Below, piece after piece: positions 47,019-64,000 of a stretch of DNA of 64,000 nt. The first letter of the stretch is position 1; every line of letters starts with the position of its first letter. The DNA is from Anaerolineales bacterium. Its GTDB lineage: Bacteria; Chloroflexota; Anaerolineae; Anaerolineales; Villigracilaceae. Below the pieces are notes generated by a model. That model was not told the origin of the DNA. It worked only from the letters and a program-made list of their open reading frames with translations, and searched no databases. Made by a program: the position numbers and the translations under genes. The stretch is taken from positions 1-64,000 of the forward strand of contig JAGUZU010000099.1 in NCBI GenBank assembly GCA_020060625.1, in the 5' to 3' direction.

Positions 47019-49991
47019 ATGGATATGTCCCAGTCTTCAAACCAGTCCACAGGCAAGTCGGAAAAATATCAGTACAACCGAAACGGCTTCATCATTACCG
47101 TTGTATTGATGTCCATGACGCTTCCCTCTGCCGCGTTGTTTGCCTATTTCGGGTACAAAAACCAACTGCTCCCGTTGTTCGTTCCGGCGGCGCTGTTGAT
47201 CCTCACCTTTTTCTTCGACTTTTTCCCATTGTCGTTGATCAGGCAGGGTCGCGCGAACCTGGCGATGACGATCCTAAGCGCGGTATTTTTTATCGATGTG
47301 GCATCCGTGCTTTTTGTTGCGCAGGGCTTTGGATTGATCGGCGCCGCGTCCATCATTATGGTGACATTGTCCATTGCGGGACTGGCGATGACCCCGAATT
47401 ACTTTACAAGAGGGGTTGCCGCCGCGCTTGTCCTCGGCTTTGCCGCCGTTGCATTGGATGCCGCGCTCACGGCGGAGCGGATTCGGCTTCCCCAGTTGGA
47501 AACCTATTCGACATACATCGCGGCTGTAATCGCGGCTCCGATCCTGCTGATTCTGCTAAGGGAGTTTAACAAGTTCAATCTCCAGGTAAAGATCACGCTG
47601 GGCATCCTGTTCACGGGGGGCATCGTGGTCGCCACAATCGTGCTGTTCGGGTTGGAACGCGCCAACGCAATCGTGAACTCGCTTTCGGGCAGGTTCGAGG
47701 CGAATATCATCGAACAGACGGAAGCCCGCATTTCGAGCGTTGTCCAAATCGAAGCGGAAAAATCCGACTCACTTTTTTCCGAAACAACACACGACCTCCT
47801 GGGAATCGCCGAATACCTTTCGGCGCTCGAAGAACAGACCGATCAATTTGCAGGCGGCGTCTATTGGAACGCGGAAGAAAATATTTTCCAGCTTTCCCGC
47901 GGTCAGTATGGCAACTCGAACAGCGATCCGGCTTCCATCTTTATTCCAAACACCTACATATTGAACGAACGAATGCTTGCGGATTTGAACACCGCCATCC
48001 ATCTCGACTTTCTGTCGCCCGGTTTTTTGGATACGCATTCGGAAGTGGTTGCGCTCTACTACATAAGCCCGCTCGGTTATACGATCTACTATCCAAACAT
48101 CGGGCTTGCGCAAGCCGTGCCTCCCGACTTCGACCCCGTGCAGGAACCGTTTTACACGATTGCAGAACCGCGCAACAATCCGATGCGCCAGCCGCGTTGG
48201 ACCGAACCCTATCAGGACCCGGCGGGAACCGGCTTGATCGTGACCCTGTCCGTCCCGGTTTACACGAAAAAGGGACTGTTCAAGGGAGTTGTCGGCGCAG
48301 ATTTGCAGCTTACCCGCATTGCGGAGTCCATCTCCAACATCAAACTTGCCGAAAGCGACTTTTCCATTTTGCTGGACGAACACGGTCACATTCTTGCCAT
48401 GCCGGAGCAGGGCTACGCCCTCTTCGGTCTGGAGTCGGTGGAAATCCCCGTGAACGAAAGCCCGGAACAAACCGTTCTCGATACGCCGCACGAGGATTTG
48501 AAGCCCATCGCGGAATACATCGCCGTCAACGCCTCCGGGATCACCAGTGTTACCATCAACGATGAAAGCGCCTACCTTGTGATCTCCTCCCTGGAAACGA
48601 CGGGCTACAAACTGGTCACGTTTGCCCCGGAAAACGAATTGAACAGGGAAATCGTCGCATCGCGCGCAAGCATCGAAAACGACATCCAAACCGCATTTCA
48701 GGGCGCGGCGTTGATTCTTGCCATCCTTTTTATCGGCGCGCTCATCGTCAGTTTATGGGTCGGTCAGATTATCACCCGTCCGATGAAGCGATTAACCGGC
48801 GCTGTCGAACAGATTGCGGGCGGAGACCTGACCGCCCGTGTCCAGGTGGAATCGCAGGATGAAACGGGCACGCTGGCAAGATCATTCAATGCAATGGCAG
48901 ACAGACTCAGCCAAACGCTTCAAGGGCTTGAAGAACGCATCGCAGAACGCACCAACGAACTGGAAAAAATCAGTCAGAGCAACGCCTATCGCGCCGCTCA
49001 ATTCGAATCCATTGCCCGCATCTCCCGCACCATCAGTTCCACGCAGTCATTGGACGCCCTTCTCCCGCAGATCGCAAGAACCATTTCAGCCCAGCTCGGT
49101 TTTTATCACGCGGGCATCTTTCTGCTCGACGCTCACAAGGAATACGCCGTCCTGGTCGCCGCCAACAGCGAAGGCGGTCAAAGGATGCTGGAACGAAACC
49201 ACCGCCTGCGCGTCGGCGAGACGGGCATCGTGGGATTCGCAACCCGATCCGGACAACCCCGCATCGCTCTCGACGTTGGGCTTGATGCGGTTTACTTCAA
49301 CAATCCCGACCTCCCAGAGACCCACTCGGAGATCGCCCTCCCCCTGAAGATCGGCGATGAAATCATCGGCGCATTGGACGTCCAAAGCACGGAACCCAAT
49401 GCCTTCTCACAGGAGGACATCAGCATCCTCTCGACACTGGCAGACCAGGTAAGCATCGCCATCCAAAACTCGCGTTCCTACCAGCAAAGCCAGGAGGCGC
49501 TCAAACAAGCGGAGCTGACCGCCAGACAATTAAGCGAACAGCAATGGAGTCAGCTGTTGAAGCGCCAATCCATTGCTGGGTATCACTTCGACGGCGTCGA
49601 AGCCAGGCAGCTGGAGGCATCCCAAGCCGCGCAACAGGAAAACAGTCTTTCCATACCGCTTGTGCTGCGCGGCGTAAAGATCGGCGCGCTCAAACTCAGT
49701 CCGACCGACCCAGCCAGAACATGGGACGAAGACGAGATCGCAATGGCAAAAGCGACCGCCGAGCGCACCGCACTCGCCATCGAGAACGCCCGCCTGCTGC
49801 AAGACGCGCAAAAGCGAGCCACAAAAGAACGCGCCATCGGAGAGATATCCGCCAAGATCAGCAATCTGGCAAATCTGGAAAACATCCTTCAGACCACGCT
49901 CAAGGAACTGGGCAGGACGCTGCCAGGCACGGATATAGCCATCCAGTTCACGTCAGAGAATTCCGGCGATAACAACCGCGCAGGAGAATGA
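47019..49991 (+). CDS. Hybrid receptor: multi-TM sensor plus dCache, HAMP and GAF
   Basis: This 990-aa protein combines the two receptor designs of this cluster in one chain. Residues about 25-180 are a multi-helix membrane sensor, followed by another helix (188-210). A dCache-type extracytoplasmic domain spans about 215-560 ('YYPNIGLAQAVPPDFDPVQEPFYTIAEP...WTEPYQDPAGTGLIVTLSVPVY', '...GVVGADLQL'). A helix (563-585), HAMP (586-640), the cluster GAF (664-820) and the shortened GAF-like block (840-925) follow. It ends with the tail 'NLENILQTTLKELGRTLPGTDIAIQF'. Its dCache resembles that of the gene at 55210 ('YYPNIDLAAIVPPDFDV'). Start is ATG 47019, or ATG 47025 two codons in; neither has a strong ribosome-binding site. 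Confidence 0.83.
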   Translation: MDMSQSSNQSTGKSEKYQYNRNGFIITVVLMSMTLPSAALFAYFGYKNQLLPLFVPAALLILTFFFDFFPLSLIRQGRANLAMTILSAVFFIDVASVLFVAQGFGLIGAASIIMVTLSIAGLAMTPNYFTRGVAAALVLGFAAVALDAALTAERIRLPQLETYSTYIAAVIAAPILLILLREFNKFNLQVKITLGILFTGGIVVATIVLFGLERANAIVNSLSGRFEANIIEQTEARISSVVQIEAEKSDSLFSETTHDLLGIAEYLSALEEQTDQFAGGVYWNAEENIFQLSRGQYGNSNSDPASIFIPNTYILNERMLADLNTAIHLDFLSPGFLDTHSEVVALYYISPLGYTIYYPNIGLAQAVPPDFDPVQEPFYTIAEPRNNPMRQPRWTEPYQDPAGTGLIVTLSVPVYTKKGLFKGVVGADLQLTRIAESISNIKLAESDFSILLDEHGHILAMPEQGYALFGLESVEIPVNESPEQTVLDTPHEDLKPIAEYIAVNASGITSVTINDESAYLVISSLETTGYKLVTFAPENELNREIVASRASIENDIQTAFQGAALILAILFIGALIVSLWVGQIITRPMKRLTGAVEQIAGGDLTARVQVESQDETGTLARSFNAMADRLSQTLQGLEERIAERTNELEKISQSNAYRAAQFESIARISRTISSTQSLDALLPQIARTISAQLGFYHAGIFLLDAHKEYAVLVAANSEGGQRMLERNHRLRVGETGIVGFATRSGQPRIALDVGLDAVYFNNPDLPETHSEIALPLKIGDEIIGALDVQSTEPNAFSQEDISILSTLADQVSIAIQNSRSYQQSQEALKQAELTARQLSEQQWSQLLKRQSIAGYHFDGVEARQLEASQAAQQENSLSIPLVLRGVKIGALKLSPTDPARTWDEDEIAMAKATAERTALAIENARLLQDAQKRATKERAIGEISAKISNLANLENILQTTLKELGRTLPGTDIAIQFTSENSGDNNRAGE

Positions 49992-49992
49992 C

Positions 49993-51726
49993 ATGCTTCA
50001 GAAAATATTCGGCTATTTTATAGATGAAGAAGACACAGACCCGTCGTTCATCGCCCTGACACGAAACATTTTGATCTTTGTCATGGTCACGACCCTTGCC
50101 GTGCTGCCGCTGGTCGCCGGCGTTACCGGGGAGGAAGCGCGAAGTATCGTGGCAATCGTTGTCCTTTCTGCCGCATTAATTGCGGAAGGGGCTGCGCTCT
50201 TTTTCGTATTTCAAGGCAACGTCCTGCCCGCAAAAATAATCGTTCCTGTTGTGCTGGTAATCGCCATTACAACAATCGCGATCAACATCAACGGTCTTCG
50301 GGATACTTCCATCCTTGCCTTGCCGCTGATCTTGGTTATATCCGCCCTTCTACTGGGAAGGCGTTCGCTGACACTCACAACACCGTTGGTAGTCATTGCC
50401 GTACTTTTTATCGCGCTAAGAGACCTGTCCACAGGAAGAGACCCCTCTCCCATCGGCATCAATGACGCCATCATTGTTGTCTTTCTTTTGATTGCCGGGG
50501 CGGGAATCATCCACTTACTGGTCTCTCGTCTCAATGAAAGCATAATCCGCGCGCAATTAAGCGAACAGGAACAAAAGATCAAGAACGAGGAACTTGACAA
50601 CCTGCGCGCCGGGCTCGAAGAAAGAGTGCGCGAAAGAACCGCCGAACTGGAAAAAGCAAACCTAGTCTCTGAAAAACGCGCGCGCCAGTTCGAAGCAGTG
50701 GCGCAGGTCTTGAAAGCGATCTCATCCATTCAAGACCTGGAAATCCTTCTCTCCCGCATCACGCAAGTAATCAGCGAGCAATTCGGAATCTATCACACCG
50801 GCATCTTCCTCCTGAACAATCAAAAGGAGTACGCGGTACTCCGCGCCGCGAACAGCGAAGGTGGAAAAAAGATGCTTGCCCGCGAACACAAACTTGAAGT
50901 CGGGCAGACCGGACTCGTGGGCTTCGTCACCGCTACCGGGCAGCCGCGCATCGCGCTTGACGTTGGAGTTGATGCTGTTTTCTTCGACAACCCCGACCTC
51001 CCGGACACCCGTTCCGAGGTTGCCCTCCCCCTGCGCTTCGCCGGACAGGTCATCGGCGCGCTGGATGTGCAAAGCACGGAACCCAACGCGTTCCGTCAGG
51101 ACGACATCAATGTGTTGATTACGCTTGCGGACCAAGTGTCGGTAGCCATCAACAACGCGCTCTCCATCGAGGAGACGCGAAAATCGCTTGCGGAGGCGCA
51201 AAGCGCCATCGGGAGGACGACGCGCGAGGCATGGCAGGTAATGCGCCCAACTTCGACCGGGCTCGGTTTTTTACTCACCGAAACGTCGATCAAACCGCTG
51301 GATAAGCCGCTGGACGGCAGTCACATCCACGAGGCGCTCGAAAAAGGGAAACCGGTCATTGCCGGGAACGCCGCGCAAGGCACAAACCTTGCGATTCCCA
51401 TCCGCCTGCGCGGACAACCCGTCGGCGTGTTGAACGTAAGCGCGCGAAAAGGGATTTACGCGTTGACAGACGACGATATTGACATTGCCGAGGCGGTCGC
51501 GGAACGCCTCTCGCTTGCGCTTGAAACCGCCGCCCTTTTGCAGGCAACACAGCATCGCGCGGAAATCGAACGCGTGACAACCGAAATTACCAGCAATATC
51601 AGTTCGTCCACTCGTTTCGAAACGATCTTAAAAACAGCCGCCCATGAATTAAGCCGCGCCCTGGGCGGTTCGGATGTGCTTGTTCAAATCGAACCCGTTT
51701 CCATGAAGATGATCATGGACGCCTAG
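49993..51726 (+). CDS. Multi-TM GAF receptor
   Basis: This 577-aa protein has membrane helices at about residues 15-190, including 'IIVPVVLVIAITTIAIN' and 'SILALPLILVISALLLGRRSLTLTTPLVVIAVLFIAL'. It has a coiled coil (about 185-230), the canonical GAF (236-389: FGIYHTGIFLLNNQKEYAVLRAANSEGG, FDNPDLPDTRSE), the shortened GAF-like block (about 405-515) and the tail 'RFETILKTAAHELSRALGGSDVLVQI'. AGGAG lies 8 bases before the ATG, which is separated by one base from the preceding stop. The next gene encodes a periplasmic-type binding lipoprotein, the only soluble ligand binder in the array. Confidence 0.83.
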   Translation: MLQKIFGYFIDEEDTDPSFIALTRNILIFVMVTTLAVLPLVAGVTGEEARSIVAIVVLSAALIAEGAALFFVFQGNVLPAKIIVPVVLVIAITTIAININGLRDTSILALPLILVISALLLGRRSLTLTTPLVVIAVLFIALRDLSTGRDPSPIGINDAIIVVFLLIAGAGIIHLLVSRLNESIIRAQLSEQEQKIKNEELDNLRAGLEERVRERTAELEKANLVSEKRARQFEAVAQVLKAISSIQDLEILLSRITQVISEQFGIYHTGIFLLNNQKEYAVLRAANSEGGKKMLAREHKLEVGQTGLVGFVTATGQPRIALDVGVDAVFFDNPDLPDTRSEVALPLRFAGQVIGALDVQSTEPNAFRQDDINVLITLADQVSVAINNALSIEETRKSLAEAQSAIGRTTREAWQVMRPTSTGLGFLLTETSIKPLDKPLDGSHIHEALEKGKPVIAGNAAQGTNLAIPIRLRGQPVGVLNVSARKGIYALTDDDIDIAEAVAERLSLALETAALLQATQHRAEIERVTTEITSNISSSTRFETILKTAAHELSRALGGSDVLVQIEPVSMKMIMDA

Positions 51727-51769: not shown

Positions 51770-52930
51770 ATGAGACAACTATTCCATTCACTTACACTGA
51801 CCGCGATCACCGGTATATTGGTGTTCGGATTAACAGCCTGCCAGCCGGGAAACAACCAGTCATCCCCGGAAGAAATTCGCATCGGCGTCATCGCCCCCAT
51901 TACCGGAAGCATCCCCAATGTCGGGAAATCCACCGTGGAAGCGGCGGAAATGGCTGCCGCGGAAATCAATGAAAACGGCGGTCTGGCAGTCGGCGGCAAA
52001 CAATACCAGATCGTTCTCCTTGTGGAAGACAATGAAGACAAACCGGAAACCGCTGTTGCGGCGGCGGAGAAACTGATTAACCAGCAAAATGTCGCAGCAA
52101 TCATCGGACCGCAGGCAAGCCGCAATGCCATCCCCGTCTCCAGGATTGCCGAGAATTCCAAAATCCCCATGATCAGCCCATGGTCCACCAATCCCGAAAC
52201 CACTCTCGAAAAACATTACGTATTCCGCGTCGCCTTTCTGGATCCCTTCCAGGGACAGGTGATGGCGCGCTTTATCTTCGAAGAACTGAATGCAACCAAA
52301 GCCGCCGTCCTGTACGATGTAGCCAGCCCCTATAACAGCGGAATTGCGGAGATATTCAAGCAGGTATTCGAAGGCGCCGGCGGCTCGGTAACCGCCTTTG
52401 AAACCTACACCACCGGCGAAACAGACTTTGCGCGGCAGCTGACCGAAATCAAAGACAGCGGCGCGGAAGTTCTCTTCCTGCCAAATTACGAGAACGAAGT
52501 TCCCGCCCAGGCAGAACAAGCGCGCGAACTGGGAATCAACATCCCCATTATCGGAAGCGATTCGTGGGGAACCATCCCGGCAGAAAGCCGCGCCGCCCTT
52601 GAAGGTTCATACTTTAGCACCCATTACGCCTCCGATATTGCGGAGGAACCCGCGCGCACTTTCATTCAAAATTACATCCAGGCTTACGGGCATGTTCCCG
52701 ACGACGTCGCCGCCCTCACGTACGACGCTTTTGGTTTATTGTTCAAGGCAATTCAAAGCCAGGCATCCTCCGACCCGGAAGCCATCCGCACCGGGCTGGC
52801 GGCGACCGAATCCTACGTCGGCGTAACCGGCACAATGCAATACTCGGGCAGCGGCGATCCGATCAAGAGCGCTGTCATCCTGAAGGTGGTAAACGGTGAA
52901 TTCATATTTTACAAACTTGCAACCCCCTGA
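51770..52930 (+). CDS. Branched-chain amino acid-type substrate-binding lipoprotein (Peripla_BP_6, LivK-like)
   Basis: This 386-aa lipoprotein has a signal sequence ending in the lipobox FGLTAC (Cys24), then a type I periplasmic-binding fold: 'IRIGVIAPITGSIPNVGKSTVEAAEMAAAEINENGG', 'VAAIIGPQASRNAIPVSRIAENSKIPMIS', 'AVLYDVASPYNSGIAEIFKQVF'. The family binds amino acids, amides or related compounds for ABC import or sensing. No permease or ATPase gene lies nearby, and both neighbours encode membrane receptors. It may therefore present ligand to a receptor rather than feed a transporter; this is inferred. A CGGAG site precedes ATG 51770. Confidence 0.9.
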   Translation: MRQLFHSLTLTAITGILVFGLTACQPGNNQSSPEEIRIGVIAPITGSIPNVGKSTVEAAEMAAAEINENGGLAVGGKQYQIVLLVEDNEDKPETAVAAAEKLINQQNVAAIIGPQASRNAIPVSRIAENSKIPMISPWSTNPETTLEKHYVFRVAFLDPFQGQVMARFIFEELNATKAAVLYDVASPYNSGIAEIFKQVFEGAGGSVTAFETYTTGETDFARQLTEIKDSGAEVLFLPNYENEVPAQAEQARELGINIPIIGSDSWGTIPAESRAALEGSYFSTHYASDIAEEPARTFIQNYIQAYGHVPDDVAALTYDAFGLLFKAIQSQASSDPEAIRTGLAATESYVGVTGTMQYSGSGDPIKSAVILKVVNGEFIFYKLATP

Positions 52931-52972: not shown

Positions 52973-55198
52973 ATGCGCTTCCTGAGAACCAACCTGACAG
53001 CGCGGCTCATCTTTCTCTTCACAACGCTCTCCGCGATCATCATCGCCATTATCGCGTTGATCTCGTTTGTGAACGCGCGCAACGCGCTGACCCAATCCGT
53101 CTATGAACGATTGGACGCCGTTTCGACCTTGAAAGAGGAGGAACTCAACCGGTGGATATTCGACAAACAGAACGAAATCGTTTTCCTCTCCCGCCGAAGA
53201 GAATTGAACCGAAACCTGCGAACGCTCGCCGCGCACGACGAAGACACCAGCTTCTACCAGGCGGCACATAACAGCCTGACGATCTTTTTAACCACCGAAT
53301 CCAGTAACCTTACCTCCTTCCAGGAATTAATTTTACTCAGCCCTGTCGGCGGAAAGATCCTGGTATCCACCGAGCAGGAAAACGAGGGTCAATACCGTGT
53401 CTCGGACAGTTACTACTCACAGGGGCGCCTGGGGTTATACATTCAAAAAGTATATACCTCGCCCCAAACCGGCAAGCCGACCCTGACCATCTCCGCCCCG
53501 GTCTACGATACGCAGGGAAACCTCGTCGGCGTGCTTGCCGCCCATCTCGACCTGGAACGCCTCGACAGCGTCATCCTCCAACGCGCCGGGCTTGGCGAAA
53601 CCGGCGAAACCTACCTCGTGGATCGTTTCAACAATTTCATCTCCGCCGCGCGCTTCGGTGAACGCGAACTGCCCCGCGGCATCCATACCGAAGGAATTGA
53701 TGCCGCCATGGAAGGCATAGATGGAAAGGGGGAATATCCAAACTACGATGGAATCCCGGTCATCGGCGTATACCGATCGCTGGAGGAATGGGATGTTGTC
53801 ATCCTCACTGAAATTAGCCAGGCGGAAGCCTTTGCGCCGGCGCGAAGGCTCGGCATTGCCGTAACGCTGGCAGGGCTTGTCACCGCCCTCGCCCTGGCGT
53901 TTATCGCGTACTTCCTGGCAAACCAAATTGCCAGACCGGTGCTTGCCATTCGCGACACCGCGCTGCAGATTGCATCCGGAAATCTGGAAGTGAAAGCCCC
54001 CGTCACGACCCAGGATGAAATCGGCATTCTGGCAGAATCCTTCAACCGCATGACCAGTCAGTTACAGGAAACCCTTGGAAGCCTCGAACAACGGGTTGCC
54101 GAACGCACCGCCGATCTTGAAATCTCCCGCCGTCAAAGCGACAAGCGCGCCAGTCAACTGCTGGCAGTCGGTGAAATCTCCAAAGTCATCAACAGCGAGC
54201 AAAAATTCGAAAGCTTGCTCGCGCTGATTACCCGGTTGGTGAGCGATCACTTTGGCTTCTATCACACCGGAATTTTCCTGCTCGACGAAACGGAACAATT
54301 TGCCATCCTGCATGCCGCAAACAGCGAAGGCGGAAGGAACATGCTGAAACGCGGACATAAACTCAAGATCGGCGAAAGCGGAATCGTGGGATACGTCGCA
54401 AAATACGGCGAGCCGCGCATCGCGCTGGACGTCGGACTTGACGCGGTTTTCTTCGACAATCCCGACCTCCCCGCCACCCGCTCCGAAATGGCGCTCCCGT
54501 TAAAATTGCGGGATGAAATTGTCGGCGTGCTGGATGTTCAAAGCGAAAAACCAGGCGCCTTCTCAGATGAAGATGCGAACATCCTGAGCATCCTTGCAGA
54601 CCAGATCGCCATAGCCATTGAAAACGCCAAATTGTTCACTCAAACCCAACAGGCGCTCAGCGAAGCCCAAGCCCTCTATCGCCAAAATCTTAAAGAGGGA
54701 TGGAGCGCATTCGTCGGCGGCGCCGGGATGGTCGGATATTACAAAACCCCAACCGGCGGCAACAAGCTGACCCAGCCCATTAATACGGAGGAAATCCAGC
54801 AGGTCATGAATCGCGGGGAAGTGATCATTCTTCACGCAGATGGCAGGAGCCAGGAACCCGCCCTCGTGATCCCCATCAAATTGCGCGGACAGATCATCGG
54901 CGTAATGCAGATCAAAGCCCCGTCCCTGAACCGCCAATGGACAGCCAATGAAATCGGGCTTACCGAAACGGTTGCGGAACGCCTCTCGCTTGCCCTCGAA
55001 AACGCGCGCCTCATCGAAGAATCCCAGCAGCAGGCGATCAAGGAACAGACGATCAGCGACATCACCGGAAAGATCGGTTCGTCCATCAACTTTGAAAACG
55101 TGCTGCTGACCGCCGTCGAAGAATTGGGGCGTTCGATCCCCGGCTCGGAAGTCGTCATTAAATTCGAAAACGAAGAATCAGACGAAGGCATGGAATAA
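52973..55198 (+). CDS. dCache-HAMP-GAF receptor
   Basis: This 741-aa protein has a helix at 10-32 and a double-Cache region (about 33-285, with 'YYSQGRLGLYIQKVYTSPQTGKPTLTISAPVYDTQGNLVGVLAAHLDLERL'), the layout of bacterial amino-acid-sensing dCache domains. A second helix (287-310), HAMP (311-365), a coiled coil, the canonical cluster GAF (397-552) and the shortened GAF-like block (565-679) follow. The tail is 'NFENVLLTAVEELGRSIPGSEVVIKF'. The GGAGGAG site before ATG 52973 is the strongest in the cluster. It is directly downstream of the LivK-like binding lipoprotein (42-bp gap), making it the best candidate receptor partner for that protein. Confidence 0.85.
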   Translation: MRFLRTNLTARLIFLFTTLSAIIIAIIALISFVNARNALTQSVYERLDAVSTLKEEELNRWIFDKQNEIVFLSRRRELNRNLRTLAAHDEDTSFYQAAHNSLTIFLTTESSNLTSFQELILLSPVGGKILVSTEQENEGQYRVSDSYYSQGRLGLYIQKVYTSPQTGKPTLTISAPVYDTQGNLVGVLAAHLDLERLDSVILQRAGLGETGETYLVDRFNNFISAARFGERELPRGIHTEGIDAAMEGIDGKGEYPNYDGIPVIGVYRSLEEWDVVILTEISQAEAFAPARRLGIAVTLAGLVTALALAFIAYFLANQIARPVLAIRDTALQIASGNLEVKAPVTTQDEIGILAESFNRMTSQLQETLGSLEQRVAERTADLEISRRQSDKRASQLLAVGEISKVINSEQKFESLLALITRLVSDHFGFYHTGIFLLDETEQFAILHAANSEGGRNMLKRGHKLKIGESGIVGYVAKYGEPRIALDVGLDAVFFDNPDLPATRSEMALPLKLRDEIVGVLDVQSEKPGAFSDEDANILSILADQIAIAIENAKLFTQTQQALSEAQALYRQNLKEGWSAFVGGAGMVGYYKTPTGGNKLTQPINTEEIQQVMNRGEVIILHADGRSQEPALVIPIKLRGQIIGVMQIKAPSLNRQWTANEIGLTETVAERLSLALENARLIEESQQQAIKEQTISDITGKIGSSINFENVLLTAVEELGRSIPGSEVVIKFENEESDEGME

Positions 55199-55209
55199 GG
55201 AAGCCACCC

Positions 55210-57681
55210 ATGAACAAACCGCGTTTTTCCATATTCGACGCCATCGAAAATACCGCCTTCGGGCGGCTCAAGCTGAGGACAAAACTGACCCTGGGCAACA
55301 TGCTCATCACATTCCTTGTAATTTTCGTCATGGGCAGTTATGTCTATTTCCGAACCCAGCAGGCGGGCGCGCAACTGACAATACAGTTGGATCAAAACAT
55401 CCGCAACAGGGCGGAGGAAAACCTGCTCTCCACCAGCAAGGAACAGGCGGCGCTGTTGAACAACTTCTTCGAATCCATGAGCCGGGACACCTCCATTGTC
55501 GGTTCCACAATCGGCGATATGTTCGCGCAGCGCGAAACCCTCGACAATGGTCTGTATTGGAATGCCGCCACATCGCTTGTCCGTTTATCATCCGGAAATT
55601 GGGATAATTCGGATTCTGAAATTGCCTCCATTTTCCTGCCGGCGGACCTTGATCTTTCCGAGTCGCTCGTTGCAAAATTGAACATTCTGAAACATACCGA
55701 ATTGGTCATCCCTTCGATCCTGGAGGACAACTCCGACATCATTGCCATCTACTTCGGAGGTGTCACCCGCGAAACCGTCTATTACCCAAATATAGACCTC
55801 GCAGCCATCGTTCCGCCCGATTTCGATGTGACCGGGCGTATTTGGTTTGTGGAAGCCGCGCCCGAAAACAATCCGGAGCAACAGGTCATCTGGTCCGCCC
55901 CCTACCAGGACGCCGCCCTGAACGGGCTTGTCATCACAACCAGCGTCCCCGTCATGGACAATCGAAACAGATTCCAGGGCGTTGCAGCCATGGATATTCA
56001 ACTGTTACAAATCACAACCCTGGTTTCCAACATCCAGGTCGGCGAGACGGGATACGCCTTTCTTGTGGATAATAACAACCGCCTGATCGCGTTTCCCGAA
56101 AGAGGCTACAGCGACTTCGGAATAACCGACGCGACCGCCCGCCTCGGCGAGATCATGGATTCCTCGACCCTGCCCGATGCCGCGCCTGAATTTTTCAAAA
56201 TCCTGGATACGGTCGCGGCAGACACGGAGGGCGTCTTCACGATCAACCTTGGGGGCACCGAACATTTTGTGGCGCATCGAGAAATACCGGAAGTCCAATA
56301 CAATCTGGTCATCGTCGCGCCGTCGAGGGAGCTGCTTACGGAAGCGGACATCCTCAGCAGCCAGATTGCGGTGGAAACAAGGAACACGATCGTTGTCAGT
56401 GTAATCCTCATTGTATTGATCTTTGCGCTTGCATCCGCAATTTCCTTTACGATCAGCAGCCGTCTGACAACACCCCTCAGGGACCTGACCCACGCAGCCA
56501 ATGAGATCATCTCCGGAGATTTCGAAGCCAGGGTGGAAGTGCGCTCGCAGGACGAAATCGGAACCCTGGCAAAGACGTTGAACGCCATGACCGCCAATCT
56601 GAAAGGTCTGATCCAGTCGCTCGAACAGCGGGTCGTGGAAAGGACGTCCGCCTTGCAGAACGAGCTGCAAAAAGGCAAACGCCGCAGCAAACAATACGAA
56701 GCAATCGCAAAGGTCGCGCAGGCGATCAACGCAACCCAAAACCTGCAAGAACTGCTGCCGCAAATCTCGGAGGTGATCAGCCAACAGTTCGGCTACTACC
56801 ACGCCGGCATCTTCCTCAACGACGCAAGCAACCAATACGCAGTGCTGAGCGCCGCGAACAGCGAGGGCGGAAAACAAATGTTGAAACGCGGGCATCAATT
56901 GAAGATCGGCGAACAGGGCATTGTCGGCTATGCGACAGGCTCCGGAAAGCCGCGCATCGCGCTGGATGTCGGTGAGGATGTTGTGTACTTCAACAACCCC
57001 GATCTTCCCGAAACCCACTCCGAAATGGCGCTGCCGTTGATCATATCCGGCGAAATCATCGGCGCGTTGGACGTGCAAAGCACGGAAGCCAACGCCTTCT
57101 CGCACGAAGACATCGACGTCCTCGCCACGCTTGCGGATCAGGTCAGCCTCGCGATTCAAAACGCCCGGTTGTACGACCAGATGCAAAGGTCGCTGGCGGA
57201 GGCGGAGGCGATCTCGCGGCAATACTTCCGCGAAGCATGGAGTCAATTAACCCACGATCAAAAAGTGACCGGATTCCGCTATACCGCCGGCGGCACAATA
57301 CCGCTGGATGTCAATCACAAGCAGGATCAAAAGGGCGACAGCGAAAGGAAAAAAGTGTCCGTCCCCATCGTCATTCGCGGAGAGAATGTCGGCGCGCTGG
57401 AGGTAATGGTTCCCGCGCAGGAACGGGTAAAGCCCGATCAAATGGACCTGATCCGGGCGGTGGCGGACCGCGTGGCGATCTTCGCGGAAAACGCCAGATT
57501 GTTCGATCAAACCACCCGCCGCGCCGAGCGCGAACGCCTCGTAGCGGAAATCACAACCAAAATACGCGGAACGAACGACCCCGGAGAAATGATCCAAATT
57601 GCCGTCGAGGAACTCCGCGAGGCGTTGGACGTTTCACACATCGAGATCGTCCCACAGAAAAGCGCGCCCACCGACAGATAG
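55210..57681 (+). CDS. dCache-HAMP-GAF receptor
   Basis: This 823-aa protein has a helix at 29-50 and a large dCache region (about 51-395), with 'TVYYPNIDLAAIVPPDFDVTGRIWFVEAAPENNPEQQVIWSAPYQD' and 'GVAAMDIQL'. A second helix (397-417), HAMP (418-472), a coiled coil, the canonical GAF (498-653), the shortened GAF-like block (660-763) and the tail 'DPGEMIQIAVEELREALDVSHIEIV' follow. The extracytoplasmic domain is most like that of the receptor at 47019, so the two probably sense related ligands. It has AAGGAAG before ATG 55210. It is the last receptor of the run; the ParA gene begins 17 bp after it. Confidence 0.85.
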   Translation: MNKPRFSIFDAIENTAFGRLKLRTKLTLGNMLITFLVIFVMGSYVYFRTQQAGAQLTIQLDQNIRNRAEENLLSTSKEQAALLNNFFESMSRDTSIVGSTIGDMFAQRETLDNGLYWNAATSLVRLSSGNWDNSDSEIASIFLPADLDLSESLVAKLNILKHTELVIPSILEDNSDIIAIYFGGVTRETVYYPNIDLAAIVPPDFDVTGRIWFVEAAPENNPEQQVIWSAPYQDAALNGLVITTSVPVMDNRNRFQGVAAMDIQLLQITTLVSNIQVGETGYAFLVDNNNRLIAFPERGYSDFGITDATARLGEIMDSSTLPDAAPEFFKILDTVAADTEGVFTINLGGTEHFVAHREIPEVQYNLVIVAPSRELLTEADILSSQIAVETRNTIVVSVILIVLIFALASAISFTISSRLTTPLRDLTHAANEIISGDFEARVEVRSQDEIGTLAKTLNAMTANLKGLIQSLEQRVVERTSALQNELQKGKRRSKQYEAIAKVAQAINATQNLQELLPQISEVISQQFGYYHAGIFLNDASNQYAVLSAANSEGGKQMLKRGHQLKIGEQGIVGYATGSGKPRIALDVGEDVVYFNNPDLPETHSEMALPLIISGEIIGALDVQSTEANAFSHEDIDVLATLADQVSLAIQNARLYDQMQRSLAEAEAISRQYFREAWSQLTHDQKVTGFRYTAGGTIPLDVNHKQDQKGDSERKKVSVPIVIRGENVGALEVMVPAQERVKPDQMDLIRAVADRVAIFAENARLFDQTTRRAERERLVAEITTKIRGTNDPGEMIQIAVEELREALDVSHIEIVPQKSAPTDR

Positions 57682-57697
57682 GAAATTGAGGCAAACC

Positions 57698-58486
57698 ATG
57701 CTCAGAACCATAGCCGTATCAAACGAAAAAGGCGGGGTCGCCAAAACCACAACAACCCTCTCGCTTGGCGCCGCTCTTGCAGAATTGGGCAGCCGCGTCC
57801 TGCTGGTGGACTTGGACGCCCAGGCAAACCTTACCCTCGCGCTCGGTCTGGAACCCGGCGAATCGGAACAAACCTCCTACAACCTCCTCCTCGATAACGC
57901 CCCCCTGGAAAAAACCTGCCGAAAGACAGATGTCGAAAACATCGACATTATCCCCTCCAGCCCAAAGATCGAAACCACGGAACAGTTCCTGCCGATGCGC
58001 ACGAACTACACCACCACCCTTCGCCGCGCAATCGAAGGCGCGGAGAACATTCCGTACAACTACATCCTCTTCGACTGCCCCCCGTCGTTGGGAGCGGTTA
58101 CAAAAAATGCGCTTACCGCCGCAGACCTGCTCGTCATCCCAACCCAGGCGGAATACTTCTCCGCCTACGCGCTTCGCAACATGATGAACCTCATCCGCCA
58201 GACCCGCGAGGGCGATAACCCCAACCTCGCCTACCGCATCCTCGTCACCATGCTGGACAGAAGAAACCGCACTCATCGCAACATTCACGAACAACTACGC
58301 GCCACGTTCGGAGACGGCGTCTTCAACACCGTCATCGAACTGGATACCAAACTGCGCGAAAGCCCCATCGCAGGACTGCCCATCACACATTACAAATCCG
58401 GAGCGCGCGGGTCCACGCAATACCGCATCCTTGCCCAGGAGCTAATGGAATATGCCAAAGAAACAGAAGATAAACAAGCGGCTTGA
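57698..58486 (+). CDS. ParA/Soj family ATPase
   Basis: This 262-aa protein has the deviant Walker A 'KGGVAKTTT' (Lys11 and Lys16; the usual Gly before the second Lys is Ala), the switch region 'LLVDLDAQANLT' and Walker B 'ILFDCPPSLG'. ParA proteins oscillate or form gradients on the nucleoid to position plasmids, chromosomes or protein clusters. Chemoreceptor-positioning examples are PpfA of Rhodobacter and ParC of Vibrio. No ParB gene is present. The next gene overlaps this one by 35 bp and encodes a kinase whose N-terminus looks like a ParB-type ParA-binding peptide. Start ATG 57698 has GAGG 6 bases upstream; the frame also runs on upstream inside the receptor gene, which is rejected. Confidence 0.92.
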   Translation: MLRTIAVSNEKGGVAKTTTTLSLGAALAELGSRVLLVDLDAQANLTLALGLEPGESEQTSYNLLLDNAPLEKTCRKTDVENIDIIPSSPKIETTEQFLPMRTNYTTTLRRAIEGAENIPYNYILFDCPPSLGAVTKNALTAADLLVIPTQAEYFSAYALRNMMNLIRQTREGDNPNLAYRILVTMLDRRNRTHRNIHEQLRATFGDGVFNTVIELDTKLRESPIAGLPITHYKSGARGSTQYRILAQELMEYAKETEDKQAA

Positions 58487-61400
58487 CAAACTCTTCAAAG
58501 ACATTTCGCCCGAGGAAAATGTCTCGAAGGCAAAGAGCAAGCCGAAGGTCCGGGAAGAAGCGCCTCCCCCGCCGGACCCGCAGCCTGCTCCGACATCCCA
58601 GGCATTTTCCACGCCGACGCGTCCCGCGCCCAAACGTCACACATCCGCGCTCGTCGCGCCTGAGATCATCACGCCAGCGCCCGACGGCAAGGCGGCTGTC
58701 TACACCACCAGGATTCAAACCGGCAGCCAGGATTGGGCTACGCTGAGATTGGTGGATGAAAAACAGAGACGAACCTGGACAACGGACGAACAACTGCTCA
58801 TCAAACAAGTGACAGACCAATTGTCGCTTGCGCTCGAAAATGCGCGCCTGTTCCAGGAGACGCAAAAGCGCGCGCAGGAACTCGGCACAGTCAACCAGGT
58901 CATCACCGCCGTCGCCGGATCGCTCGACTTGAACAACACCCTTCAAGTCATTGCCAACAGCCTGGTTCGGCTGCTGTCCGCGAGCCGCGCCGGCGTTGCA
59001 TTGATGAACGAAGACAAAACCACATTGACCCTGGCGGCAGACGCATCGATTCTGGGCGCGGAAACCGCCTATCTCGGCGCGCCGATCAAGATATCCGAAA
59101 GCCTGGCAACCCAGGAGGCATTACGGACGCGCAGACCCTTTTACATACCCGACGCCCAGGAAAGCCGTTATACCAGGGACATCCATGAAGCGCTGCGCGC
59201 GCGCGGCACAAAAAGCCTGTTGATCGCCCCATTGATAACAGAGGACAACGTGATCGGGACGATTGGGCTGGATTTCTCGGAAGCGAATCGAACCATCTCG
59301 CAAGACGAACTGCAACTGCTTGAGACCATCGTCTATCAAACCTCCACCGCCATTCAAAAAAGCCGCCTGTTCAGCAGGATCGAAGAATCGGAAACCAACC
59401 TGCGCGCGCTGTTCTCCGCCATGGAAGACGTGGTGCTGGTGGTAAACAGGGAAGGGCGTTATGTGCAGATTGCCCCCACCAATCCCTCGCTGCTTGTCCG
59501 TCCGCCGGAGGAATTGCTTGGAAAATTAATGCGCGAAGTACTGCCCGCGGAAACTGCGGATTATTTCACCAGCAGTATTCAAAAGGCTCTGGACGGTTCC
59601 GAAAGAGTGCAAATCGAATACGAGCTGCCGATTGGGGACCAAACTCTTTGGTTTCTCGCAAACCTCACAAAAATGGACGAGGACAAGGTCTTCTGGGTGG
59701 CAAGGGACATCACCGAGCGCAGGAAGGCGGAGGAGGAAATCTCCAAGTTCAAACTCGGCATCGATAACTCCGCCGACGCCGTGTTCACAACCGATATTGA
59801 CGGCGTAATTAATTACGTCAACCCAGCCTTCGAGCATATCTATGGCTACGCGCCCGAAGAGACTCTGGGCAATACGCCGCGCCTATTGAAATCGGGGCTG
59901 CTCGACGAAGAGTATTACAGCAGGCTTTGGAACGCCCTGCTCGATAAACAAACCACGTTCAACGAGGAAATCCCCAACAGAGCCAAAGACGGAAATCTCG
60001 TTTATGTTTCCGAGGTGAACAGCCCCATTTTGGACGAAAAAGGCGATATTCTCGGTTTTCTGTCGGTCCATCACAACATCACCGAGCGCAAGAAGGCGGA
60101 GGAAACCATCCGCCGCCGCAACGAGTACCTGGCTGCCACCGCCGAGATCAGCCGGTTGATCACCTCCACCCTGGACCTCAACACGATCTTTGCCCGCACA
60201 GTGAACCTGATCACGGAACGGTTTAGTTATTACCATGCCGCCATCTTCATCGTGGAGGAGACAGGTTTCAACGCCGTGTTAAAGGAAGGCACCGGCGAGG
60301 CGGGGGCGGAAATGAAGCAACGCGAACATTCCCTCCCCCTCGGCAACAAATCCATCGTGGGCAGGGTGGCTTCGGAAGGCGTTCCGGTTGTCGTCAACGA
60401 TACGGAAAAAAGCGAAAAACACAAATTCAACCCGCTGCTTCCCGAAACGCGCGCGGAAGCCGCCATTCCGCTGCGGATCGGTTCGCGCATCATCGGCGCG
60501 ATTGACGTTCAAGCCAAAGTTCCCAACGCCTTCCTGGAGGACGAGATATCCATCCTGCAATCGCTGGCAGACCAGGTCGCCGTCGCCATCGACAACGCCC
60601 GCTCCTTCGAACTCTCCCAGCAGGCGGTCATGGAAATGCGCGAAGCGGACCAGATGAAAAGCCAGTTCCTCGCCAATATGAGCCATGAATTGCGCACCCC
60701 GTTGAACTCGATCATTGGCTTCTCGCGCGTGATCCTCAAAGGCATAGACGGTCCCGTCACCGAATTGATGCAGCAAGACCTCACCGCAATCTATAACTCA
60801 GGGCAGCACCTGCTCGGTCTGATCAACGACATCCTTGATTCCGCCAAGATCGAAGCCGGCAAAATGGAACTGGCGTTCGACGAGGTGAACATCGCCGACC
60901 TGACCGCAAACGTTCTCTCCACCATGTCGGGTCTGATCAAGGACAAGCCGGTTCAGATGAAGCGGAACGTGGAGGAGAACCTGCCCACAGTCCGGGCGGA
61001 TGCGATCCGTGTCCGTCAGGTGATGATCAACCTGCTTTCCAATGCCGCAAAATTCACCGAGGAGGGCGATATCACCGTCAACGTTGGGCTGCAAAAAGGG
61101 GATGGCGGCAAGAGCGAAGTGATCGTCAGCGTTTCGGATACGGGACCGGGCATTTTGGAAGAAGACCAGGAAAAGCTCTTCCAGCCGTTCTCGCAAGTGG
61201 ACGCCTCGCCCACCCGCAAAACCGGCGGCACGGGACTGGGCTTGTCCATCTGCAGGCAGTTGATCAATATGCACGGCGGGCGCATTTGGGTGGAAAGCAA
61301 GGTGGGTCATGGAACCACCTTCCACTTCACGCTTCCGCTCTACCGCAAGGAAAGCGAAACCGGGCTCGAAAGCAGCAAAACGATCCTCGCCATCGACGAC

Positions 61401-62123
61401 GACTCGCAGGTGATCGGGCTCTACGAAAGATACCTGCAGCCGCAGGGCTATCACGTCGCTCCGCTGACAGACCCCTCGCGGGCTGTGGAACGCGCAAAAC
61501 TGCTCAAGCCGTTTGCCATCACGCTGGATATCATGATGCCCGGCATTGACGGATGGTCTGTGCTGGAGGCATTGAAAAGCGATTCGGAGACGCGGAACAT
61601 CCCCGTCATTGTATGCAGCATCATAGACGACCTCGAAAAAGGGTTCAGCCTCGGCGCCTCCGACTACCTCGTGAAACCGATCATCGAAGACGACCTTGTC
61701 AATGCGCTCGACCATCTGAACGCGGACGGCTCGATCCGCGAAGTGCTTGTCATTGACGACAACCGCGACGACCTGCGGCTGATCGGGAAAATGTTGAACG
61801 ACGACGGCAGGTACAAAGCCATCCTCGCCGAGGGCGGACGGAGCGGCTGGAACATCATCTCGTCCGGCAGCCCGCCTCACGCCATCGTCCTCGACCTGTT
61901 TATGCCGGACATGAACGGATTCGACATCCTGGAAAAACTGCAAACCGACAAAACCCTGCGCGAGATTCCGGTCATCGTCATCAGTGGAATGGAAGTAACG
62001 CAAGAACAAAGGAAACAACTCGAAGAATTCGGGCGGCATCTATTGACCAAGGGCAGCTTCAGCGAAAAGGAACTGTTTACCTCCATTCAACGGGCGCTCG
62101 ACCGGATCCAGGCGAAAAAATAA
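58452..62123 (+). CDS. Soluble hybrid histidine kinase with GAF and PAS sensors, ParB-like N-terminus and two receivers
   Basis: This 1223-aa protein has no membrane segment. Its domains in order are: a basic N-terminal peptide (MPKKQKINKRLDKLFKDI), a Pro-rich linker (about 30-70), a partial GAF (83-133) and a full GAF (145-306). Then come PAS (312-430), PAS (433-555) and GAF (558-719). The HisKA domain has His745 in 'MSHELRTPLNS'. The HATPase (about 845-970) shows 'NLLSNAAKF', 'DTGPGI' and 'GGTGLGLSI'. Two receivers follow, with phospho-Asp1026 (LDIMMPGIDGW) and Asp1148 (LDLFMPDMNGF). It is the only kinase in the 32-kb run, so it is the likely transmitter for the eleven receptors. It overlaps the ParA gene by 35 bp. 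The N-terminal peptide resembles ParB N-termini ('K-x-x-R-G-L-x-A-L-F'). Confidence 0.9.
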   Translation: MPKKQKINKRLDKLFKDISPEENVSKAKSKPKVREEAPPPPDPQPAPTSQAFSTPTRPAPKRHTSALVAPEIITPAPDGKAAVYTTRIQTGSQDWATLRLVDEKQRRTWTTDEQLLIKQVTDQLSLALENARLFQETQKRAQELGTVNQVITAVAGSLDLNNTLQVIANSLVRLLSASRAGVALMNEDKTTLTLAADASILGAETAYLGAPIKISESLATQEALRTRRPFYIPDAQESRYTRDIHEALRARGTKSLLIAPLITEDNVIGTIGLDFSEANRTISQDELQLLETIVYQTSTAIQKSRLFSRIEESETNLRALFSAMEDVVLVVNREGRYVQIAPTNPSLLVRPPEELLGKLMREVLPAETADYFTSSIQKALDGSERVQIEYELPIGDQTLWFLANLTKMDEDKVFWVARDITERRKAEEEISKFKLGIDNSADAVFTTDIDGVINYVNPAFEHIYGYAPEETLGNTPRLLKSGLLDEEYYSRLWNALLDKQTTFNEEIPNRAKDGNLVYVSEVNSPILDEKGDILGFLSVHHNITERKKAEETIRRRNEYLAATAEISRLITSTLDLNTIFARTVNLITERFSYYHAAIFIVEETGFNAVLKEGTGEAGAEMKQREHSLPLGNKSIVGRVASEGVPVVVNDTEKSEKHKFNPLLPETRAEAAIPLRIGSRIIGAIDVQAKVPNAFLEDEISILQSLADQVAVAIDNARSFELSQQAVMEMREADQMKSQFLANMSHELRTPLNSIIGFSRVILKGIDGPVTELMQQDLTAIYNSGQHLLGLINDILDSAKIEAGKMELAFDEVNIADLTANVLSTMSGLIKDKPVQMKRNVEENLPTVRADAIRVRQVMINLLSNAAKFTEEGDITVNVGLQKGDGGKSEVIVSVSDTGPGILEEDQEKLFQPFSQVDASPTRKTGGTGLGLSICRQLINMHGGRIWVESKVGHGTTFHFTLPLYRKESETGLESSKTILAIDDDSQVIGLYERYLQPQGYHVAPLTDPSRAVERAKLLKPFAITLDIMMPGIDGWSVLEALKSDSETRNIPVIVCSIIDDLEKGFSLGASDYLVKPIIEDDLVNALDHLNADGSIREVLVIDDNRDDLRLIGKMLNDDGRYKAILAEGGRSGWNIISSGSPPHAIVLDLFMPDMNGFDILEKLQTDKTLREIPVIVISGMEVTQEQRKQLEEFGRHLLTKGSFSEKELFTSIQRALDRIQAKK

Positions 62124-62130
62124 GGAGACT

Positions 62131-63792
62131 GTGAACGCTGTGTCGTTTATCATCAAGTGCCTCGATTGCGGTCATAACGCGCCGTATTACCCGACATCCA
62201 CCACGTGCCCGAAATGCGGCAGCCAGTGGCGGGAGGCGGAATACGACTATGAATTGATCGGCAAAACCCTGCTCGAAAGGCTTCCGGGCAGGAACCCCGA
62301 CCTTTGGAGATACAGGGAACTTTTGCCTGTCCGCAATCCAAACATCAGCCTTTCCCTGGGCGAAGGCTATACCCCGCTCATCCGCGCCGCGAATCTCGGC
62401 ATGATGCTGGGGTGCCCGAACATCTACATCAAGGACGAGCGGCAGGGACCTACTTCGTCGTTCAAAGACCGCCAGGCAGCGGTGACGATTGCGGCGTTGA
62501 AGGAGGCGGGTATCACCGAAATGGTGGCGGCGTCCACGGGGAACGTCGCCATTTCGTATTCGGCGTATGCTTCCCGGGCGGGGATGAAACTTTGGGCTTT
62601 TGTCACCAGCCTCGTTCCGGCGGTCAAGATGCGCGAGATCGCCTTGTACGGGAGCCAGGTCATCAAGATCACCGGATCGTACGATCAGTGCAAGCAGGTT
62701 GCGTCCGAGTTCGCGCGGCAGCGCAAGTTGTATCAAGACCTGGGCGCGCGCACCATCACATCCATCGAGGCGATGAAGACCATTGCCTTCGAGATCACGG
62801 AGCAGTTGACCGGCATTCAGGGAGCGGGCGAAAACACGCCCTGGCGCGCGCCCGATTGGTACGTGCAGGCGATCAGCGGAGGCATGGGACCCATTGGGGT
62901 TTACAAAGGCTTCCGCGAGATGCGGCAAATGGGCTGGACGGATAGCACTCCGTCCTTTGCGCCCATTCAAGCAGACGGATGCGCCCCGATGGTGACCAGT
63001 TGGAAAAAGGGGTTGCAGAAGGCGGAGGTCGTTACTTCGCCCAAGACCCGCATCGAAACGCTTGCGACGGGCGACCCCGGGCGTTCCTATGAATTCCTGC
63101 GGGATATTGTGAACAACACGAACGGCGCATTCGAAAGCGTCAGTGATGAAGAGGCGTTCCGGGCGATGCACGTCCTTGCAAAAATGGAGGGACTGTCGGC
63201 GGAACCTGCCGCCGCCGTCGCCTTTGCGGGTCTGTTCAAATTGATTCGGGCGGGCGTCATCAAGCCGAACGATACGGTCGTGGTCAATTGCACGGGTCAC
63301 ACCATGCCTGCCGAGGCGGGCGTTCTCGGCGAGAATTGGTCGCGCGATGTGAAGTTCCCAACCGCAGACGAAACCCCGCAGGAAGGCTTGCTCTCGGCGT
63401 TGACTCAAGTCGCGCCGGAGCGCTTCCCGAAGATCATCATCGTGGAAGACACCGCCGAGGCGCGCCGCCTGATCCGCCGCATCCTGCAATCGCAGGGGAA
63501 TTTCACCATCCTCGAAGCGGTGAACGGACGCGAAGGACTCGACCTCATCCAACGCGAACTGCCGGACCTGGTCATTCTCGACCTGATGATGCCCGAAATG
63601 GACGGCTTTACCGTCATCGAAGCGCTGCGCGCCAACCAGGAAACCGCCACCATCCCGGTGATTGTGGCGACGGCGAAGGAACTCACTCCCGATGAAAAGA
63701 ACCGGCTCGGCGGGCATATCCAGGCGCTTTTGCAAAAAGGCGATTTTCTCAACGACGAATTCCTCGAAGAAGTGAAATCACTGATCAAATGA
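62131..63792 (+). CDS. Threonine-synthase-like PLP enzyme fused to a C-terminal receiver domain
   Basis: This is a 553-aa fusion. Residues 1-35 carry a zinc ribbon (CLDCG...CPKCG). Residues about 60-415 are a fold-type II PLP enzyme of the threonine synthase family: Lys112 in 'SSFKDRQAAV' for the Schiff base, phosphate loop 'STGNVAISYSAYASRAG', and 'AISGGMGPIGVYKGF'. After a linker, residues about 430-550 form a receiver domain ('IIIVEDTAEARRLIRRIL', phospho-Asp484 in LVILDLMMPEMDGF, 'VATAK', 'LLQKGDF'). Threonine synthase converts O-phosphohomoserine to threonine; here it may be controlled by phosphorylation. GTG 62131 has AGGAG 5 bases upstream and follows the kinase by 7 bp. Confidence 0.92.
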   Translation: MNAVSFIIKCLDCGHNAPYYPTSTTCPKCGSQWREAEYDYELIGKTLLERLPGRNPDLWRYRELLPVRNPNISLSLGEGYTPLIRAANLGMMLGCPNIYIKDERQGPTSSFKDRQAAVTIAALKEAGITEMVAASTGNVAISYSAYASRAGMKLWAFVTSLVPAVKMREIALYGSQVIKITGSYDQCKQVASEFARQRKLYQDLGARTITSIEAMKTIAFEITEQLTGIQGAGENTPWRAPDWYVQAISGGMGPIGVYKGFREMRQMGWTDSTPSFAPIQADGCAPMVTSWKKGLQKAEVVTSPKTRIETLATGDPGRSYEFLRDIVNNTNGAFESVSDEEAFRAMHVLAKMEGLSAEPAAAVAFAGLFKLIRAGVIKPNDTVVVNCTGHTMPAEAGVLGENWSRDVKFPTADETPQEGLLSALTQVAPERFPKIIIVEDTAEARRLIRRILQSQGNFTILEAVNGREGLDLIQRELPDLVILDLMMPEMDGFTVIEALRANQETATIPVIVATAKELTPDEKNRLGGHIQALLQKGDFLNDEFLEEVKSLIK

Positions 63793-63823: not shown

Positions 63824-64000
63824 TTGTCAAAAAAACAAACAGCCGGAATCCTCGCGGCGTTTAGTTCGGCGGTATTTCTGGGCATGGCTCCCGTGTTCGG
63901 GAAACTTGCCATCACGCAGGGATTCAGCCCGCTGGCGGTCGTTGCCCTGCGCACCGGCTTTGCAGCGGGGATCATGCTGGTCGTCACGCTGGTCTTCTAC
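63824..64000 (+). CDS. DMT/EamA family transporter, cut by the window end
   Basis: The first 59 residues of a membrane protein are visible. TTG at 63824 is the only usable start in this frame, since a TGA lies directly before it, and AAGG lies about 9 bases upstream. The sequence shows a first helix ('ILAAFSSAVFLGMAPVFGKLA') and a second ('PLAVVALRTGFAAGIMLVVTLVFY'), which fit the ten-helix EamA family of metabolite/drug exporters. If it belongs to the same unit as the threonine-synthase fusion (31-bp gap), an amino-acid exporter would be a natural guess, but this is inferred only. Confidence 0.75.
   Translation, partial: MSKKQTAGILAAFSSAVFLGMAPVFGKLAITQGFSPLAVVALRTGFAAGIMLVVTLVFY

Follow-up and report, generated by a model that had tools for sequence, protein, structure and literature searches.

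Close to the right-hand end of a 64,000-nucleotide stretch of DNA from an Anaerolineales bacterium of the phylum Chloroflexota (contig JAGUZU010000099.1, positions 1 to 64,000; hereafter the window), we found a gene that joins an enzyme dependent on pyridoxal 5'-phosphate (PLP) to the receiver domain of a response regulator. The gene occupies positions 62131-63792 of the plus strand as a single open frame of 553 codons, which leads from a zinc ribbon through a PALP domain into a complete receiver. In Pfam scans both domains exceeded their gathering scores, PALP (PF00291) at residues 75-389 with an E-value of 1.6e-64 and Response_reg (PF00072) at residues 435-536 with an E-value of 6.8e-20 (71.7 bits against a cut-off of 30.2). 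A prediction made earlier from this DNA had described a PLP enzyme continuing in frame into a complete receiver, and the uninterrupted frame with its two domains confirmed it. K112, Cys10/13/26/29 and D484 also lie where that original prediction had placed them, and its residue numbering, which starts at 62131, is kept here.

The coding sequence itself probably begins at the GTG at 62140 (residue 4) and thus spans 62140-63792, for a protein of 550 amino acids, because the codon of residue 4 is GTG or ATG throughout 55 genes of the window's type (type A, see below; 37 GTG and 18 ATG, the window gene included). Along the plus strand follow the zinc ribbon with its four cysteines (62158-62217), the PALP domain, a PLP enzyme of fold type II (62353-63297), which contains the lysine K112 that by homology would form the Schiff base with PLP (62464-62466), a linker of about residues 395-432 (63313-63426) delimited by alignment, and the receiver at residues 434-553 (63430-63789), whose phospho-acceptor would by homology be D484 (63580-63582).

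Distribution among genomes

In order to see how widely the fusion occurs, whole-genome searches were made at E<=1e-70 in 61 genomes around the window's, and the full-length fusion was present in 51 of these, the window's own included; against this, the other 10 gave no match and one genome, G017, has a split type A copy (see below). Within the genus, 29 of the 37 genomes carry two or more matches, which fall into two types. Where full length, type A, which resembles the window protein, is 85-91% identical to it and type B 48-50%. The window's genome holds such a type B fusion itself (49% identical, contig C59), and this second copy also lies beside a kinase. In a sample of 400 genomes of the phylum, 75 gave a match at E<=1e-60. 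The match extended past residue 545, and hence through the receiver, in 41 of them (34 from the same class and 7 from other classes of the phylum), and in the other 34 no match went beyond residue 424, as expected of receiver-less relatives. A scan of genome contigs recovered the fusion at 17 of the 80 loci kept (L042-L058), the rest being mostly matches to the receiver only; all 17 are from Chloroflexota, mostly Anaerolineales, with one from Thermoflexales. Outside the phylum no full-length fusion was detected in 244 genomes around a cyanobacterium, 235 around Sorangium and 247 around an acidobacterium (E<=1e-65), or in 349 around Luteimonas and 348 around Cohnella (E<=1e-70), the last four sets yielding no match whatever; thresholds as strict as these could miss a more diverged fusion, and these four sets lack a positive control.

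Some copies depart from the usual layout. At L176 (9163-10928, genome G017) a type A copy is divided over two frames, by an indel error or by decay, and at L183 (9397-10974) EamA is in frame with the enzyme's first ~230 residues, which resembles a deletion within a type A operon. The fusion at L165 (8672-11110, minus strand) has two receivers after PALP in an open reading frame (ORF) of 812 amino acids. At L009 (8366-11666, minus strand) a type B fusion, a separate single receiver and a receiver-less protein resembling threonine synthase are encoded side by side behind a kinase; the receiver-less protein scored 576.3 against the cut-off of 303 of the PRK08197 model.

We then aligned 92 fusions (76 of type A and 16 of type B), drawn from 105 PALP-bearing ORFs, together with receiver-less rows. 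The split copy at L176 (two rows), the truncated copy at L183 and a partial duplicate of a B paralogue were left out; among the rows retained, L055 ends at a contig end and two pairs are more than 98.5% identical. K112, N138, Cys10/13/26/29, D440 and D484 are invariant in all 92 fusions, every one of which has D or E at position 439, and T/S514 and K536 occur in each of the 91 rows that extend to these sites. With its score above cut-off, its acidic pair, phospho-Asp, T/S and Lys, the receiver is, as judged by sequence, that of a response regulator. The original prediction of intact phosphorylation residues joined to intact cofactor residues therefore holds throughout the 92 fusions. The median ratio of nonsynonymous to synonymous substitution rates (dN/dS) was 0.047 for the enzyme (38 usable pairs from 54 relatives), 0.055 for the receiver (47 of 54) and 0.078 for the linker (35 of 54), which places the linker, too, under purifying selection; these values are rough, with a median dS of 1.5 to 1.9 and many pairs saturated.

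The enzyme half

The original prediction had named the enzyme threonine synthase, with threonine as the output. This assignment was not supported: the enzyme of the fusion is probably not a threonine synthase, because an orthodox thrC adjoins thrB elsewhere in the window's genome, the window protein scores below the cut-offs, and residues of threonine synthase have been lost. The product is thus probably something other than threonine. The orthodox thrC, on contig C21, reached 295.6 bits against the cut-off of 167.1, and the adjoining thrB 238.6 bits against 168.25. A thrC in this band (at least 280 bits) was found in 48 of the 61 genomes and was absent from 13. The window protein itself stayed below the cut-offs of all six threonine synthase models among the NCBIfam matches listed; its best score was with PRK08197/NF006050 (263.6 against 303), and it scored 204.5 against 421 with PRK05638 and 159.8 against 167.1 with TIGR00260.

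For the residues, the fusions were compared with five threonine synthase rows (four solved structures and the C21 thrC) in the numbering of T. thermophilus. Among the residues invariant in the five rows, K61 (equivalent to K112) and N87 are shared by every one of the 92 fusions, and at the position of T317 77 fusions have T and 15 have S; these three residues presumably bind PLP. N154, S155, N157, R160 and N188, which are likewise invariant in the five rows, are in contrast kept in only 0, 2, 1, 0 and 0 of the 92. N154, S155, R160 and N188 presumably hold the phosphate of the substrate; the comparison is tempered by a gap in the alignment there. The fusions have a conserved set of their own, which includes R104, Q115, D203, M215, the loop S249-G250-G251-x-G253-P254 and T313.

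The relation to known families can be stated accordingly. With ThrC (TIGR00260; structures 6cgq, 1uim, 2d1f, 2zsj and 1e5x) the fusion shares the PALP fold, the PLP lysine, the asparagine loop and T/S at T317, but it has other residues at positions invariant in threonine synthase, an added zinc ribbon and a receiver, and it occurs in a genome with an orthodox ThrC elsewhere. The zinc-ribbon proteins of PRK08197 have ribbon and PALP domain in common with it; unlike the fusion, they are without a receiver and form a separate clade in the tree, and the fusion lies below their cut-off. An AlphaFold model of the fusion (mean pLDDT 68.1, pTM 0.58, linker and receiver end below 50) had threonine synthases as its best fold matches, the plant enzyme with Z 26.6 over 354 residues; no receiver structure was among the first 50 matches of the model, which proves nothing. 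The second structural match was cysteate synthase, a relative of threonine synthase (CapA2, 9k3c; Z 24.6 over 353 residues). We tried and rejected two identities for the enzyme: that of the housekeeping threonine synthase of the window's genome, on the grounds of scores, replaced residues and the C21 thrC with thrB, and that of cysteate synthase, since the fusion scored 118.5 with TIGR03844 against a cut-off of 324.9.

Trees were built from thinned rows, 68 in the first and, with the long-branch row L163_S left out, 71 in the second. In the first tree of PALP domains all 42 fusions formed one clade (support 100/100), whose stem has a length of 1.82 changes per site. Homologues 47-49% identical to the window protein were present in 4 of the 244 genomes of the cyanobacterial sample, with matches ending by residue 399; in three of them a stop codon precedes any receiver, and the fourth ends at a contig end, beyond which a receiver might follow. 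All four have the new residue set of the fusions, and each of the four genomes also has a better-scoring thrC match. With these homologues in the second tree, the fusions stayed on one side of a branch with support 78/87. The simplest history would thus be that a specialised enzyme arose first and was fused once, later, in Chloroflexota, the support of this branch being moderate; loss of the receiver in the homologues of the cyanobacterial sample is a conceivable alternative. At L226 (7593-10506) one receiver-less homologue from that sample is convergent with a gene of the GH3 family, which we take to be of the acyl-amido synthetase type, a possible hint at the substrate.

Gene neighbourhood

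The fusion is the last of 17 consecutive genes that all read in the same direction on the plus strand and form a run of about 32 kb (31395-63792) with gaps of at most 43 bases. As identified with Pfam, the run comprises two receivers, eleven GAF receptors lacking a kinase, one periplasmic binding protein, a ParA, one hybrid kinase and the fusion. It starts with two single-domain receivers (31395-31808 and 31711-32259), followed by a HAMP-GAF receptor with several GAF domains (32268-36128), two MASE11-GAF receptors (36128-37717 and 37500-39386, the latter of uncertain start and overlapping the previous ORF), two receptors with transmembrane (TM) segments and GAF domains (39420-41261 and 41258-42964), a PDC/Cache-HAMP-GAF receptor (42961-45270), a further TM-GAF receptor (45286-47004), a Cache-HAMP-GAF receptor (47019-49991) and another TM-GAF receptor (49993-51726). 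A periplasmic binding protein follows (51770-52930; Peripla_BP_6, E 8.4e-62), whose nearest NCBIfam model is one of branched-chain amino acid binding, scored below its cut-off. Two dCache-HAMP-GAF receptors (52973-55198 and 55210-57681) complete the eleven. They are followed by a ParA/MinD-type ATPase (57698-58486; AAA_31, E 2.2e-49), whose start was shifted from 57599 to 57698 to fit the length in relatives, mostly 258-271 amino acids in type A loci, and by the hybrid histidine kinase (58452-62123), of the order PAS/GAF-HisKA-HATPase-REC-REC, in which a simple hydropathy count predicted no TM segment. Pfam scans of the run, the eleven receptors included, revealed no MCP signalling, CheW or HPt domain. 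At 63824, 31 bases after the fusion, begins a gene for an EamA-family transporter (63824-64000, plus strand), of which only the start is present, since the gene runs off the window and the contig; Pfam identified it as PF00892 at L010. In three of four EamA neighbours scanned with NCBIfam, an amino-acid/amine transporter model was the sole match, well below its cut-off.

The same kind of run was seen in all seven other type A genomes that were read over longer stretches. If pieces at the ends of the stretches are included, these runs hold about 4 to 13 GAF proteins lacking a kinase core; in six of the seven the run opens with two single receivers, and ParA was recognised in six. The type B relative G167 has no such receptor run. 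For the immediate surroundings, 41 distinct A loci and 15 B loci were counted, of which several A loci end at contig ends; L175 (where gene picking missed the fusion ORF), L183 and the duplicate L185 were dropped. Of the 41 A loci, 36 have a kinase as one of the two genes closest upstream, and in 34 this kinase carries receivers or is directly followed by them; 27 loci have a ParA nearby and 33 an EamA gene downstream. All 15 B loci have a kinase upstream, none bearing receivers of its own, and a single receiver lies downstream of the fusion in 9 (10 with L009, whose receiver is shown by Pfam); 4 loci have a following receiver-less gene resembling threonine synthase, 1 has a ParA nearby and none has EamA downstream.

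Proposed mechanism and alternatives

Taken as a whole, we think it probable, at a level well short of certainty, that the protein works as a response regulator, phosphorylated by a kinase, and that its output domain, a PLP enzyme of fold type II from the threonine synthase superfamily, is catalytically competent and distinct from threonine synthase. Phosphotransfer, allosteric control, an altered substrate and export are the steps we infer. Many membrane receptors lacking kinases would feed one soluble hybrid kinase, for which the kinase at 58452 is the likely partner, because receptors without kinases need one and it is the sole soluble hybrid kinase encoded alongside. This kinase would phosphorylate D484 of the fused receiver, and the resulting conformational change would pass through the ~38-residue linker to the enzyme half and alter its activity, probably through the arrangement of subunits. 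PMC9081730 describes allosteric dimers and tetramers among fold type II PLP enzymes, the plant threonine synthase included. The enzyme would act on a different amino-acid substrate from that of the housekeeping threonine synthase, and the EamA transporter encoded beside it may carry the product out of the cell; the match of the EamA neighbour to an amino-acid/amine transporter model is a weak hint at export of this product or of a related amino acid.

The original prediction had also placed a phosphorelay immediately upstream. A kinase is indeed near, in the proportions given above, which is circumstantial as a sign that it is the cognate kinase of the receiver; the term relay is doubtful, as the kinase at 58452 contains no HPt domain in Pfam. 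Of the two routes, direct transfer from the kinase to D484 is the likelier, because the kinase lacks an HPt domain and the sole HPt match of the genome is on another contig, C12. An HPt phosphorelay inside the cluster was rejected for the same reasons, and a relay through the distant HPt on C12 is a less likely but conceivable route.

Several observations count against the reading proposed here. The pairing of kinase and fusion is not strict, since 5 of the 41 A loci (L058, L154, L159, L160 and L184) are without a kinase close upstream; the genomes of L154 and L184 (G049 and G444) contain a further copy that is linked to a kinase. The AlphaFold model is too poor to reveal a contact between receiver and enzyme, so that the interface is not predicted. 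The B paralogue lies slightly over the TIGR00260 cut-off (171.3 against 167.1), as do three scanned standalone homologues. Other receiver-less proteins of Chloroflexota that resemble threonine synthase also miss some of its residues, clade by clade, so that, by sequence, the changed pocket is not peculiar to the fusion clade. Seven of the 13 genomes lacking the orthodox thrC band carry the fusion, three from the same genus (G002, G024 and G034; 79, 90 and 85% complete) and four from other families (G043, G049, G054 and G056; 97, 95, 90 and 94% complete). Other proteins resembling threonine synthase are present in genomes without the band, and in G024 and G049, where no match whatever passes the TIGR00260 cut-off, one of these or the fusion would have to make threonine. 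G049 holds two type A fusions, and its best TIGR00260 score, 166.7 against 167.1, comes from a receiver-less protein. The seven genomes are thus a point against a non-threonine product, at least as a universal one.

These seven genomes, of which the four from other families are each at least 90% complete, together with the B paralogue's score, the intact PLP residues and the fact that threonine synthases are the best family and fold matches, speak for a true threonine synthase placed directly under two-component control, with phosphorylation adjusting threonine output. We consider this unlikely in view of the six cut-offs missed by the window protein, the orthodox thrC by thrB in the same genome and its band in most of the genomes, and the replacement of residues invariant in threonine synthase.

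Rather improbable, too, is that the enzyme half is a non-catalytic sensor which binds PLP or an amino acid and modulates the receiver, the protein being a phosphate sink or adaptor with a ligand input. A dead enzyme acting as ligand sensor had been offered in the original prediction, and would agree with the long stem and changed pocket of the clade, its place in a sensor-rich cluster and an orthodox enzyme elsewhere in the genome. It is weakened by cofactor residues that are invariant in the 92 fusions and kept, with the residue set, in the four homologues of the cyanobacterial sample, of which three are demonstrably receiver-less and so have no receiver to sense for; moreover, the enzyme half is constrained as strongly as the receiver.

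We give still less weight to a receiver that only docks the enzyme to the assembly of kinase and receptors, like a scaffold that sets its location without regulating catalysis. The convergence of many receptors on one kinase and a ParA near 27 of the 41 A loci, suggestive of positioning, fit such docking, but ParA is near at only one of the 15 B loci, and the acidic pair, phospho-Asp, T/S and Lys are all conserved, beyond the needs of a docking module. Finally, a frameshift or assembly join at 63380-63430, which would have united two genes artificially in what is a metagenome-assembled genome, and for which the split copy in G017 might be cited, is ruled out for practical purposes by full-length fusions in dozens of separate assemblies (51 of the 61 genomes and 41 of the 400 of the phylum sample) and in two paralogous families, some of the genomes being one contig.

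Known systems and significance

The original prediction had described receivers as normally fused to DNA-binding or second-messenger outputs. Fusions of receivers to standard metabolic enzymes are already recognised as a minority class of response regulators, according to PMC5847659. The enzymatic-output regulators described there share with our protein a receiver and a metabolic-type enzyme in one chain and the presumed control of the enzyme by phosphorylation; unlike those, the PALP-REC fusion spans several families of a class and beyond, and its receiver is C-terminal. No PALP output domain was found among the open-access papers listed in literature searches, and a prior mention is possible, with most subscription papers outside the search. 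A word search of the main text of one large survey of such proteins, PMC4558063, gave neither 'PALP' nor 'pyridoxal', and PMC7090099 names threonine synthase only as a gene with measured expression. We rate a fusion of this type as new within a known class; it is widely distributed, and its genetic surroundings are unusual. If the proposed reading holds, a PLP enzyme is controlled by a two-component pathway with no intervening transcription, which gives a fast metabolic output. The unity of enzyme and receiver beside sensors and a kinase suggests that the cell switches a chemical reaction directly in response to its surroundings. The findings also point to a clade of PLP enzymes with a conserved residue set of its own, which occurs fused and alone, and to a large cluster of receptors that is conserved in a phylum little studied so far.

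The whole run of about 32 kb might be one machine, in which the eleven receptors, ParA and the GAF hybrid kinase drive a PLP enzyme whose amino-acid-like product is exported by EamA; we regard this as doubtful, if worth considering. It would then be a signal-gated factory for a metabolite or an extracellular signal, kept across an order of Chloroflexota. In chemosensory arrays many receptors serve one kinase and are positioned by a ParA-type protein. The run follows the same scheme, in which numerous receptors without kinases are combined with a single soluble kinase and ParA, but is built on GAF-based modules; as one machine it would be an analogue of such arrays made from GAF modules, with an output that is neither motility nor transcription.

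In some other clusters the slot of the binding protein is taken by NMT1-type or ABC_sub_bind proteins, as if the ligand varied by species. At L221 (3020-7927, minus strand), genes for an OmpR-type regulator, a REC-GAF-kinase and a GAF-kinase lie on the opposite strand past EamA, and a REC-kinase gene occupies that place in 15 of the 41 A loci.

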